Of a stretch of DNA of 60,100 bases, positions 18,451 to 22,795 are shown piece by piece. The stretch's first letter is position 1. Every line of letters starts with the position of its first letter. The translations under genes were made by a program, and so were the position numbers. Below the pieces are notes generated by a model. It had not been told where the DNA came from, made no database searches, and worked only from the letters and a program-made list of their open reading frames with translations. The stretch is from an uncultured Tidjanibacter sp. Lineage in GTDB: Bacteria; Bacteroidota; Bacteroidia; Bacteroidales; Rikenellaceae. The stretch is from assembly GCA_947852905.1 (NCBI GenBank), contig CANTVF010000005.1:108053-168152 (forward strand), written 5' to 3'.

Positions 18451-18855
18451 ATGGAAATCGAGAAAGTGGAAGGGACTTCGGACCGTTTGTACTCGCTCGT
18501 CGCACCACTCGTAATGCGGCGGAGTGTGTTGCGTCAGAATAATAACTATCCGTTCTGGACATCCCGGTCCCATATCTGGTTTGTCGCTATGGAAGGCGAT
18601 GCGGCGGTAGGTTTCGTTCCCGTAGAGTTGAAGGACAACGGCAGTATAAAGATAAACAATTATTATGTAGCCGGTGACGACGGGTCGCAACTTACGGCTT
18701 TGCTTGGTGCCGTCGTACACGACTACGGAGGCAGGTGTCCCATTTGTGCCGTAGTTCATGCACGTCATGTACCTTTGTTTTGCGCCGCAGGGTTTTCGGC
18801 CGTAAAAGAGTGGAAACTTTACGTGAAAATGGAATATGGCAAAAGTGGCAAATAG
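18451..18855 (+). CDS. Small GNAT-fold protein, first gene of the ibrAB operon
   Basis: A 134-residue protein. Its layout fits a compact GNAT acetyltransferase: VAMEGDAAVGFVPVEL (strands beta2-beta3), KINNYYVAGD, a helix, and a C-terminal LFCAAGFSAVKEWKLYVKM that copies the GNAT motif-B pattern (GFxxxxxWxxYxxM). The acetyl-CoA Q/RxxGxG/A loop is not obvious, so activity is uncertain. The 3' end overlaps the next gene by 20 bp, which couples it to IbrA. No substrate can be proposed from sequence. Confidence 0.6.
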   Translation: MEIEKVEGTSDRLYSLVAPLVMRRSVLRQNNNYPFWTSRSHIWFVAMEGDAAVGFVPVELKDNGSIKINNYYVAGDDGSQLTALLGAVVHDYGGRCPICAVVHARHVPLFCAAGFSAVKEWKLYVKMEYGKSGK

Positions 18856-20152
18856 TCATCCGAACGTATACGAGCTTGCCCAACAACGTCTGCATACCAT
18901 ATTCGCTTCGTTCGATAATGTATATGTATCCTTTTCAGGCGGAAAGGACAGCGGCGTATTGCTGAATCTGTGCATAGACTATATACGGAAACACGGTCTC
19001 AAAAGAAAGCTGGGCGTGTTCCATATGGATTACGAGATACAGTATAGGGATACGATAGCTTATGTGGACAAGACTTTGGCTGCAAATCGCGATATACTCG
19101 AAGTGTACCGTGTATGCGTACCGTTCAAGGTACAGACGTGTACGTCCATGTTTCAGCAATACTGGCGCCCGTGGGAGGAGTCGAAACGCGATCTGTGGGT
19201 ACGTAAGATGCCGGAAGGATGTCTTACGACGCAGGATTTTCCATTTTTCACGGAGACGATGTGGGACTACGAGTTCCAGAGTCGTTTTGCCGAGTGGCTG
19301 CATGAACGTAAACATGCCACGCGCACGTGTTGTCTGATCGGCATACGGACGCAGGAGAGTTTCAACCGCTGGCGAAGCATATACAGCGACCGGAACAATC
19401 ATCGTTTTCGCGGCGAACGCTGGATACGCGAATGGCGCTGCGGGCATATTTGCAGCGCTTATCCGATATTCGACTGGTTGACTTCCGACGTGTGGACAGC
19501 CAACGGAAAGTTCGGCTGGCCGTATAACCGGCTTTACGATCTGTATTATATGGCGGGAGTGCCATTGGACAATCAGCGGGTTGCCAGCCCGTTCATATCG
19601 CCGGCCATTTCGAGTCTGCAACTTTACAAGGCTATAGATCCGGATACGTGGGGACGTATGATAGGTCGCGTGAATGGCGCTAATTTCGCGCAGTTGTACG
19701 GTAGGACTTCGGCTATAGGGTGGCAGTCCATAAAATTGCCTAAGGGGTTGACATGGGAGAGATACATGCATTTTCTGTTGTCCACGCTCCCGGAGGAGAC
19801 GCGACGCAGCTACCTCGAAAAATTGTCGGTCAGCATCAGATTTTGGCGCGAGAAGGGCGGTTGCCTGTCTGACAAGACGATAGCGCGGTTACGGCAGGCA
19901 GGAGTGCCGATGATCGTGGGCGAAAAGAGCGGTTACCGTACCGACAAGAAACCTGTCAGAATGGAGTATATGGATGATATAGATGTTCCGGAGTTCAGCC
20001 AGCTGCCTACGTTCAAGCGTATTTGCATCTGTATATTGAAGAACGACCATGCCTGTAAATATATGGGATTCTCGCCCAACAAGAAGGAGACGCAGCGCCG
20101 TAAAAAAATAATGGAACAGTATGAAACGTTGTTGCGAAACACAAGAGGGTGA
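18836..20152 (+). CDS. ibrA: IbrA-like PAPS-reductase-family protein (DUF3440)
   Basis: This 438-residue protein has an N-type ATP-pyrophosphatase/PAPS reductase fold. The PP-loop SGGKDS lies at 34-39, followed by LGVFHMDYEIQYRD. A conserved region EGCLTTQDFPFF ... RTCCLIGIRTQESFNRW resembles the DUF3440 proteins typified by E. coli IbrA. The C-terminal half (DUF3440 proper) includes GEKSGYRTDKKP. Relatives include DndC/SspD-type enzymes that act in DNA phosphorothioation, but IbrA itself is known only as a regulator of immunoglobulin-binding genes. Start chosen at ATG 18836, overlapping the GNAT gene; the 3' end overlaps ibrB by 32 bp. Function here is inferred to be nucleotide or nucleic-acid related. 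Confidence 0.82.
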   Translation: MAKVANSHPNVYELAQQRLHTIFASFDNVYVSFSGGKDSGVLLNLCIDYIRKHGLKRKLGVFHMDYEIQYRDTIAYVDKTLAANRDILEVYRVCVPFKVQTCTSMFQQYWRPWEESKRDLWVRKMPEGCLTTQDFPFFTETMWDYEFQSRFAEWLHERKHATRTCCLIGIRTQESFNRWRSIYSDRNNHRFRGERWIREWRCGHICSAYPIFDWLTSDVWTANGKFGWPYNRLYDLYYMAGVPLDNQRVASPFISPAISSLQLYKAIDPDTWGRMIGRVNGANFAQLYGRTSAIGWQSIKLPKGLTWERYMHFLLSTLPEETRRSYLEKLSVSIRFWREKGGCLSDKTIARLRQAGVPMIVGEKSGYRTDKKPVRMEYMDDIDVPEFSQLPTFKRICICILKNDHACKYMGFSPNKKETQRRKKIMEQYETLLRNTRG

Positions 20153-20693
20153 GGCATTCCGCAGCCCTGTCTACAACGTGCGCGCCGTACCGGTGGAGAA
20201 AGTCGTAGCCAACAGTTACAACCCCAATATAGTGGCGCCTCCGGAAATGAAACTTCTGGAACTTTCCATCTGGGAGGACGGGTATACGATGCCGTGCGTG
20301 TGTTACTATGACAAGGAGCGCGATCTGTACGAACTTGTGGACGGCTATCACCGGTACATGGTACTCAAGACCTCGCGAAGGATATACGAACGGGAAAAGG
20401 GATTGTTGCCGGTGACGGTCATAGAGAAGGATATTTCCAACCGTATGGCTTCCACGATAAGGCACAACCGTGCACGCGGAGCGCATAATATCGAGCTGAT
20501 GAGCGAGATAGTGGCCGAACTCTCTAAAGCCAATATGTCCGATCAGTGGATCATGAGGCATATAGGTATGGACCGCGACGAACTGTTGCGCCTGAAACAG
20601 GTTACAGGTATCGCGGCACTTTTCGCCGATAAGGAGTTCAGTGCCGGAGCTGCGCTCGGTTTCGCCGAGGAGAAGGAGCCGGTGGGGGAGTAA
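20121..20693 (+). CDS. ibrB: IbrB-like ParB/sulfiredoxin-fold protein
   Basis: A 190-residue protein with an N-terminal ParB/Srx domain: VRAVPVEKVVANSYNPN, LELSIWEDGYTMP, then DGYHR (74-78) in place of ParB box motif GERR, and ASTIRHNRARGAHN as the second ParB box. The C-terminal half is helical (KANMSDQWIMRHIGMDRDELLRLKQ), like the helix-turn-helix of ParB relatives. It is always next to IbrA in the pairs I know. The 32-bp overlap with ibrA and the operon with a GNAT-like gene imply one functional unit. Confidence 0.82.
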   Translation: MKRCCETQEGEAFRSPVYNVRAVPVEKVVANSYNPNIVAPPEMKLLELSIWEDGYTMPCVCYYDKERDLYELVDGYHRYMVLKTSRRIYEREKGLLPVTVIEKDISNRMASTIRHNRARGAHNIELMSEIVAELSKANMSDQWIMRHIGMDRDELLRLKQVTGIAALFADKEFSAGAALGFAEEKEPVGE

Positions 20694-21257
20694 TGCCGGC
20701 AGACAGTCGTTTCCTGTCGCTATGTCGTTGTCGGAGAAAATTATAGTCAGGCAGCGCGTTCCGGCATGAAGGTTATGCGGTCGACAATCTGTTGTTGCTT
20801 GTTGATCATTGAGTCCCACGTATTTTCTTCTTGTCTGTTTCGTTCTGGCCTAACTTTTCTGTGTGTAACACGTATGTGAGGAGGCTTGTGTGGCTTTCTA
20901 TCGTGTAGGGCTGCGGAAAGAGAGCATAGGGGCGTTGTCGTATGTTCGGTGGGGCATCTGCTTTTAATCTCATGCAGACCTTGAATCTTGTATCTCCAAT
21001 CCGTAATGAAGTATCGTAACAAAGGCGTATGTCGGTCAGTGCCGACTATGGTCGACATCGTATAGTATCTGTGGCGTGTTTTCTAACAGGTGTTAGGCTA
21101 ATTATGTTTTATATCTTTGCCTTTAACTTATATGTGATTATAAATCAATGGTATACTTGCGATGTCGATGAGTATGTGAAATCGGTAAAATTCTGAAAAA
21201 TGTCATGTTGTGATAAAAAATAGATTGTCGTGATTTTATAAACTTATTTGATTTTCG
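20694..21257. other. Intergenic region between ibrB and the MATE leader
   Basis: About 560 bp without a supported gene. A second -7-like element, TATCTTTG, occurs at 21112-21119 and could drive a longer MATE transcript. Base composition shifts to AT-rich towards the MATE gene. Confidence 0.35.
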
Positions 21258-21265
21258 TATCTTTG
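21258..21265 (+). promoter_or_regulatory. -7 element of the MATE gene
   Basis: TATCTTTG is a full TAnnTTTG match. Transcription from it would start near 21271, immediately before the folded leader. The -33 region is poorly conserved. Confidence 0.55.
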
Positions 21266-21271
21266 TACATG

Positions 21272-21448
21272 TAAAACTGGCAAGCGTTTTATAACCTTGG
21301 TAAACACAAGGCGAGTTATCCTTGGAAAGGCAGAAGCCCGACTGATGACCGTGAACGATCGCTGCTGCGGCAGTGCTTGGCTTAAAGCCGAGAAATCGCG
21401 TCATATGTCAGGCTTATTTTATGTTTAATCCTTTCCAATGGTAACAAA
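21272..21448 (+). promoter_or_regulatory. Structured, apparently bistable 5' leader RNA of the MATE gene (candidate riboswitch or attenuator)
   Basis: Several strong helices are visible. The 5' hairpin pairs 21291-21299 with 21307-21319. A 16-bp long-range helix (one mismatch, one G-U) pairs 21315-21330 with 21430-21445, just before the MATE ATG at 21449. Segment GTTAT (21315-21319) is used by both, so the two are mutually exclusive. Inside the long-range helix an interrupted stem pairs 21334-21348 with 21401-21415, enclosing two hairpins (21360-21365/21370-21375 and 21379-21382/21386-21389). A 27-codon open frame (21345-21428) also runs through it. I could not match it to TPP, cobalamin, FMN, SAM, guanidine or yybP-ykoY classes. 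Confidence 0.65.
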
Positions 21449-22795
21449 ATGAGACCAAAAGTATTCGATTTGGGACAGACGAGTGTTGCCCGTCTGTTCG
21501 GTATCTATTTCTTTCCGACTCTTGTCGGAATGTTGAGTACCTGCGTAGTGACTGCTACGGACGGTATATTTGTCGGGCATGGGGTAGGAGCGAATGGTTT
21601 GGCAGCGGTAAACATCTGCTATGCTCCGGGGATGATTATAATGGGAATCGGCATGATGCTCGGAATGGGAGTATCTGTAACGGCCGCTTTTCAACTTTCG
21701 CATGATAATATTGAAAAAGCCCGAGCGAATGTCTTTTCCGCATTGTTCATTTCAACGTTGATAACGGTTGTCCTTGCAGTCATGGTTCTATCAAACCTTA
21801 ATTTGGCTGTCGTGTTTTTGGGTAGCTCGGAAACCCTTTCTTCACAAGTCAAAGATTATCTGCAATGGTTTGCTCCCGGATTGATGTTCCAGCTATGGAC
21901 AATTATAGGTTTGTTTGTTATAAGGCTCGACGGTTCTCCTGCTTATGCGATGTGGTGTAATGTTGTGCCGGGAGTTCTGAATATCACTTTGGATTATATC
22001 TTTATTTTCCATTTGGATATGGGGGTTAGCGGGGCGGCTTTTGCGACCTTCATCAGTTTTATGACGGGAGGCGTTATGGTTATAGTCTATCTGTTTCGTT
22101 TTGCCGATAAATTGCGTATTGCCAATGTACACCTTTTCCGATTGAGGGAAACGGCTGCCTATTGTTATGCTCAATGCAAAGTCGGATTATCGGTGTTGTT
22201 GGGAGAAGGTGCACTCGGCATAATGACTTATATGGGTAATCTGATGTTCATGAAATATGCGGGTGATGCCGGTGTAGGGGCTTTCAGTGTGGCATGTTAT
22301 TTCGCTCCGTTCGTATTTATGACAGGAAATGCCGTCGCGCAATCAGCTCAGCCTATTATCAGTTATAATTTTGGGATCGGGGCATTGAAACGGGTCGTAC
22401 AGACGGAGCGGATTGCTGTTGGCGCAGCGATAATTTGCGGTCTGCTTATAACTTCCGTGTTCGTAATGTTCCCTCGTATAATGGTAAGTCTGTTCATTGA
22501 TGCAAAATCCGCAGCGGGAGTAATTGCAACAAGAGGCTTGCCGATTTTTGCAATGGCTTTCGTGGCATTCGTTTTCAATTTGACTGTTATTGGCTATTTC
22601 CAAAGTGTGGGAAAAGTCCGCCTTTCCGTCATATTCGCCTTACTTCGTGGTATTGTTTTCATTATTCCGGCTTATCTTATTCTTCCGTCGGTATGGGGAA
22701 TAAATGGCGTATGGTTGGCGCAGTTCGTTTCGGAGGTATTGACCTCCTTGACAATAGTTGCTTTTTATTGTTGGAATAGAATTAGGGCTTTTTAA
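21449..22795 (+). CDS. MATE-family multidrug/toxin efflux transporter
   Basis: This 448-residue inner-membrane protein has about 12 hydrophobic segments in two similar halves. N-terminal half: LFGIYFFPTLVGMLSTCVVTATDGIFVGHGVGANGLAAVN, the typical MATE TM1-TM2 pattern. Second half: YMGNLMFMKYAGDAGVGAFSVACYFAPFVFMTGNAVAQSAQPIISYNFG, the mirrored motif. It resembles MepA/NorM-type exporters that expel drugs or metabolites with Na+ or H+ antiport; substrate is unknown. The gene is more AT-rich than its neighbours and is preceded by a strongly folded leader whose 3' arm reaches the start codon, so expression is probably controlled after transcription starts. Confidence 0.92.
   Translation: MRPKVFDLGQTSVARLFGIYFFPTLVGMLSTCVVTATDGIFVGHGVGANGLAAVNICYAPGMIIMGIGMMLGMGVSVTAAFQLSHDNIEKARANVFSALFISTLITVVLAVMVLSNLNLAVVFLGSSETLSSQVKDYLQWFAPGLMFQLWTIIGLFVIRLDGSPAYAMWCNVVPGVLNITLDYIFIFHLDMGVSGAAFATFISFMTGGVMVIVYLFRFADKLRIANVHLFRLRETAAYCYAQCKVGLSVLLGEGALGIMTYMGNLMFMKYAGDAGVGAFSVACYFAPFVFMTGNAVAQSAQPIISYNFGIGALKRVVQTERIAVGAAIICGLLITSVFVMFPRIMVSLFIDAKSAAGVIATRGLPIFAMAFVAFVFNLTVIGYFQSVGKVRLSVIFALLRGIVFIIPAYLILPSVWGINGVWLAQFVSEVLTSLTIVAFYCWNRIRAF

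Follow-up and report, generated by a model that had tools for sequence, protein, structure and literature searches.

Some riboswitches are platforms for the control of translation, in which the start site of the gene is hidden. The described system closest to the leader reported here is Gd4v, a guanidine-IV-variant candidate riboswitch with two hairpins and a pseudoknot, in which the 3' hairpin is a terminator that carries an extra hairpin, D2, on top (PMC9788692). Gd4v is associated with MATE, GNAT, and transaminase genes, Bacteroidetes are among its hosts, it is enriched in the gut, and its ligand is unknown (PMC9788692). Guanidine-IV (GGAM-1) has two hairpins and a kissing loop and works as a terminator ON switch, with MATE among its genes (PMC7736828, PMC11611296); D2 is absent from guanidine-IV in the sugE-linked set (PMC9788692).

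The window analyzed here is a whole stretch of 60,100 nucleotides from an uncultured Tidjanibacter sp. (Rikenellaceae), in which a gene for a MATE exporter of 448 aa (positions 21449-22795, forward strand) is preceded on the same strand by a leader RNA at 21272-21448, recognizable from its fold and from its alignment to the leaders of two sister genes. We lean towards the view that this leader is a remodelled descendant of a Gd4v-like MATE switch candidate and now acts mainly on translation. The exporter scores 106.4 bits against Pfam MatE (1.6e-30; cut-off 24.9), which makes it a member of that family, and it falls below the curated cut-offs of all named NCBIfam pumps. Upstream of the leader, TATCTTTG at 21258-21265 (forward strand) fits TAnnTTTG, the -7 box of Bacteroidetes promoters, and an earlier note on this DNA had this element start transcription at the edge of the leader; by pattern match, a similar box lies 21-33 bases upstream of the leaders in 30 of 46 relatives. 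Elsewhere in the window, a PAPS-reductase/DUF3440 protein and then a 190-aa protein without a Pfam match are encoded at 18836-20693, a gene pair that presumably resembles IbrA/IbrB.

The leader is a real, strongly structured RNA. Positions 21266-21460 fold at -66.5 kcal/mol, compared with a mean of -45.4 (sd 4.2) for 200 dinucleotide shuffles, none of which is as low in energy (z -5.0), so the strong folding claimed in the earlier note holds; when raw energy is considered, 28 of 400 stretches of 180 nt sampled from both strands of the window fold as low. In the best fold of 21272-21460, 21315-21320 pairs with 21440-21445 and 21322-21330 with 21430-21438. The 16-bp long-range helix that had been proposed between 21315-21330 and 21430-21445 does form, but with 15 of its 16 positions paired and a mismatch at 21321/21439, and its end lies three bases ahead of the ATG at 21449, not next to it as had been proposed. 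The start codon is nevertheless covered, through the pairing of CGTTTT (21285-21290) with AAAATG (21446-21451) in the best fold, and this pairing and the long helix together leave the ribosome site and the start codon paired. Between -20 and +3, the bases of the window leader are paired with a mean probability of 0.83, versus 0.28-0.73 in seven relatives folded likewise, amongst which the sisters L014 and L070 stand at 0.70 and 0.73. Since 9 of 300 shuffles contain some 16-position helix with 15 or more pairs when G-U is counted, the length of the helix alone is only mildly unusual. The duplex between the P1-strand arm and the stretch before the ATG reaches -19.7 kcal/mol, a value attained by none of 300 shuffles (-5.2, sd 1.5). 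Inside the long helix, the interrupted stem proposed earlier is present at 21334-21354/21396-21415, as 5+3+5+4 bp, and both inner hairpins (21360-21375 and 21376-21392) are present in the best fold as well.

Bistability at equilibrium, as claimed for this leader, is not supported: the pairs of the long helix have probabilities of 0.93-1.0, the outer pairs of the competing 5' hairpin (21291-21319) have a probability of 0.0, and freeing 21430-21445 from all pairing takes 14.2 kcal/mol. A kinetic switch during transcription is possible, as predicted from the alternative pairings, since CAAGG at 21307-21311 has a CCTTG on each side with which it can pair as long as the 3' arm is still to be transcribed.

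No known Rfam class accounts for the leader. A search of the window with Rfam 15 at gathering thresholds returned only two tRNAs, and 21100-21600 at E up to 10 gave a single antisense match (E 5.7). Three relatives (L013, L007, and L010) also yielded only tRNAs at gathering thresholds, and the L013 leader at E up to 10 gave 21 matches, none of them at gathering score. The fold and the Rfam search thus bear out the proposal that the MATE gene has a structured, regulatory leader without an Rfam match, and no report of this leader was found in the literature searched, which covered few subscription papers. Copies of the leader are equally scarce. Among 150 family genomes, DNA homologs outside its own genome amount to two matches of 40-41 nt, at one of which (L003) the MATE leader motif described below was not seen; plasmids gave no match with leader plus gene, phages gave one match inside the MATE gene and none in the leader, and viral contigs gave no window-type leader by a 25-nt pattern. 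The lack of a second copy of the window-type leader in the family genomes, plasmids, phages, and viral contigs searched counts against the descent that we favor.

The leaders of the relatives share a nearly invariant motif composed of GTTTTGTAATCCTCATCGGAGGG, a variable linker, GCCGGATAAGATGACTGGGTAAAACC, a closing strand, and a U-run/terminator. In 45 sequences, 97.5% of cells pair overall (97.2% in P1 and 96.8% in P2) and the U-run is present in most alignment rows, giving a two-hairpin plan with a 3' terminator and U-run. D2 is a 3-bp helix with 97.8% of its cells paired and one pair changed on both sides in two sequences; its pair type differs in L083 and L089. The letters that may kiss, AUC and GAU, are complementary in all 45 sequences, and all but one of their pairs are invariant. 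The covariation check suggested for homologous leaders was run on this motif of the relatives and found double-sided changes at three pairs, four cells in all, a result that 2 and 0 of 500 shuffles attain; a control slid by +3 has an equal number of double changes but only 45.4% of its cells paired. A putative conserved GTTTT/AAAAC pairing in the relatives, judged by eye, is contradicted by L082. In five relatives (L051, L063, L082, L083, and L089), the linker between P1 and P2 seemingly holds one extra small hairpin, judged by eye. The invariant loop contains an ATG followed by two codons and a stop (ATG ACT GGG TAA) in 42 of 46 distinct motif copies, the stop being TAA, TAG, or TGA (e.g., in L013, L009, L010, and L024), and this frame may simply come with the loop, or it may be a reading frame of minimal length.

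The genome of the window itself holds a paralog, L013, that has 49% identity to the window MATE and carries the motif, so that canonical and presumably remodelled versions stand side by side in one organism. By DNA, the motif occurs in 35 of 268 family genomes. All 54 other homolog places at E 1e-100 or better in these 268 genomes were checked for it: 31 of the 32 homologs that are at least 46% identical to the window MATE have the motif (the exception is L056), and none of the 22 homologs at 45% identity or less has it. It is also present in a Porphyromonadaceae MAG (L070), a Muribaculaceae MAG (L071), a contig from a viral collection (L014), and one MATE-encoding record from a phage collection (L095). 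Covariance-model scans of the order and of the phylum, both under strict filters, matched 14 of 393 and 14 of 395 genomes, respectively. Twelve of the matches in the order are credible, and L084 and L085 were rejected because the motif is absent on reading. In the phylum, the genome of the window and one other genome of the order are matched by the motif, and the other 12 matches (25.8-33.4 bits) were discarded, none having both conserved blocks; no motif beyond Bacteroidales was thus found by the model, under these filters, among the 395 phylum genomes. Two copies occur in other settings: downstream of one on a Bacteroides plasmid (L094:2858-2921), no MATE gene lies within 3 kb, and the first gene annotated after it encodes an AI-2E family transporter and is read from the opposite strand; a canonical motif at L076:1501-1586 lies ahead of a protein that resembles a MATE of another subfamily and for which a comparison with the window MATE at E 1e-20 gave no match.

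The position of the window MATE amongst these proteins carries much of the argument. It is 55% identical to L014 and 53% to L070, and both the 46-protein and the 66-protein tree place it as sister to these two (support 100/99). The smaller tree excludes 19 motif-less family homologs and the larger adds these and L095 (41 proteins with the motif, 24 without, plus the window MATE); five fragmentary MATE rows (L021, L029, L040, L043, and L044) are left out of both. The place of the window MATE is the same after this addition, and both sisters have the canonical motif. Apart from the window MATE, the 48-row branch around it and its sisters consists of 38 motif rows and nine motif-less rows, the latter forming one group with L051. 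The branch of the window MATE is long (1.36 and 1.57 in the 46- and 66-protein trees), and since the trees are also midpoint-rooted, we treat the presence of the motif in the ancestor as an inference only. No ortholog more than 53% identical was found among the 268 family genomes or in the genome collection; L014, at 55%, was reached through the motif search.

When the window leader is laid against those of its sisters, parts of the motif can be followed along the forward strand. GTTTT at 21286-21290 aligns in both L014 and L070 with the first letters of the relatives' GTTTTGTAATCC block, and it is followed by a 24-nt insert relative to the sister leaders (21291-21314) that holds a 5' hairpin (21295-21299/21307-21311). 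Alignment and fold mark the 5' arm of the long helix (21315-21330) as a putative remnant of the relatives' P1 (CCTT-GGA-AAGG), and P2 at 21334-21415, multi-branched in the best fold, is the counterpart of their terminator hairpin according to the fold and the covariance-model alignment. Within P2, GATGACCG at 21344-21351 appears to be retained from the relatives' GATGAC(C/T)G block, and the two inner hairpins (21360-21392) lie in an insert of ~45 nt that replaces the small hairpin D2. At the 3' end, TTATTTTATG (21414-21423) aligns as the counterpart of the U-run, the simple terminator pattern being gone (a pattern scan of the leader found no terminator-like site), and the 3' arm of the long helix (21430-21445), placed by the fold and the duplex comparison, lies just upstream of the start codon. 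The alignment with L014 reads GCGTTTT, the 24-nt insert, GTTATCCT, GGCA, GAAGCC-GA, and GATGACCG, then the ~45-nt insert and GGC..ATTTTATGT; the 3' end TTTTATG...CCTTT...AACAAAATG is common to the window leader and L070.

From these parts, we infer common descent of the leader, repression of translation by default, and an opening that switches the pump on. The ancestral leader would have been a Gd4v-like candidate riboswitch ahead of this MATE clade in Bacteroidales. By analogy with the published mechanism of guanidine-IV, ligand binding in the relatives would let P1 kiss the terminator hairpin P2, so that termination does not occur. In the lineage of the window, the kissing-capable letters of the P1 loop would have been lost, an insert would have widened the terminator hairpin, and the P1 strand would have become an arm of the 15-bp helix that, together with CGTTTT/AAAATG, covers the ribosome site and the start codon. 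Translation would then be repressed by default, and an opener (a ligand, a helper protein, or co-transcriptional folding) would turn the pump on. A move of the output from termination to the hiding of the start is the simplest account. Complementarity of P1 to the stretch before the start, extreme in the window leader, exists in a weaker form in L070 already (-8.8 kcal/mol, reached by 3 of 300 shuffles), which counts for this descent. It is not significant in L014 (z -1.3), and 7 of 33 other relatives have it at z -2 or less, which counts against. In a bolder version, which we hold to be doubtful, the riboswitch changed both sensing and output: after duplication and fast change of the pump, the kissing loop was lost, new hairpins perhaps came to bind a new compound, and the terminator gave way to the start-hiding helix, the Bacteroidales motif forming a branch of its own, absent from the catalogues, within the guanidine-IV superfamily.

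The loss of the ancestral parts also fits a switch in decay, its function lost, its present fold a by-product, and its pump weakly or constitutively expressed. The P1 loop lacks AUC and the GATGAC that is kept is paired inside P2, so that the two loops are unable to kiss, and no simple terminator hairpin with a U-run is left; the MATE sits on a long branch and the leader is a singleton. We nevertheless consider decay unlikely, given that a z score of -5.0 and a near-perfect new helix over the start are not its usual products, that the MATE gene keeps its reading frame unbroken through 448 codons, and that motif-less relatives such as L068 (by eye) have no such leader.

Whether the leader derives from the motif at all can be weighed against controls. 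The relatives' covariance model does not recognize it: 7.6 bits is the best match in 1.3 kb, but over 50 kb nine other stretches score higher (the two inspected look like terminator hairpins) and one scores equal (E 8.9 for the leader), so the leader is ruled out as a plain member of the motif. At least 90% of 45 relatives agree in 56 columns; the leader keeps 40 of these, as do 50 of the 3240 control stretches, this leader included, and only 12 of the 20 invariant columns are kept. The leader aligns to each sister with a score of 54.5; of 1000 shuffles, 2-7 score as high under global alignment and 3-5 under local alignment. Among 3240 window stretches, the L014 score is reached by nine, none of which is this leader, and the L070 score by one, which is this leader. 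Sequence similarity by itself is therefore suggestive of common descent, and the case rests on position and gene tree. A new, unrelated leader that replaced the motif, with a structure of independent origin and a chance similarity to the sisters, would account for the low score and rank in the covariance model and for the control stretches that do as well on conserved letters and on the L014 score. It would leave to coincidence that place, strand, and distance to the box are equal to those of the sisters' leaders, that matches occur at both ends, and that in 60 kb the L070 score is reached only here, and we regard it as quite improbable. Descent from the motif is favored by the motif in front of both sister genes and 31 of 32 close homologs and by the leader alignments, and is opposed by the 7.6-bit score, the invariant columns, the long branch, and the midpoint rooting. 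A translation-coupled attenuator, in which a ribosome on a leader ORF opens the long helix and ribosome-stalling drugs alter pump output, is very improbable: the ORF at 21297-21428 (TTG start, 43 aa, inner ATG at 21345) does end two bases before the 3' arm, but an ORF of such length is not improbable and has neither a ribosome site nor homology to support it, and the fold has the ATG at 21345 paired, the same ATG meeting a stop after three codons in 42 of 46 relatives.

If the window leader is a remodelled descendant, the relatives' motif, which hardly varies across the one MATE clade of gut-type Bacteroidales that it precedes, and its altered counterpart offer a useful pair. A comparison of what both pumps export and of how their leaders respond could help to find the ligand of Gd4v, and could show how the output of a riboswitch changes.

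Compared with the described systems, the motif of the relatives fits Gd4v in its two hairpins, terminator, D2, MATE genes, and occurrence in Bacteroidetes, a comparison made by text description, which is why we call it Gd4v-like and not Gd4v. The mutated loop letters of Gd4v are an adjacent G-U (PMC9788692), whereas the letters that may kiss in the relatives are AUC/GAU, and the window leader differs further in having no AUC, no simple D2, and no simple terminator. The earlier claim that the leader fits no known class therefore holds for Rfam, but MATE leaders of the same clade fit the description of Gd4v and the window leader is their likely descendant. With guanidine-IV, the relatives' motif shares two hairpins, a terminator, and MATE genes, and it differs in having D2, absent from sugE-linked guanidine-IV. 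The window leader, in which no ligand domain is recognized, resembles the start-hiding riboswitches in the predicted masking of its ribosome site and ATG by the long helix.
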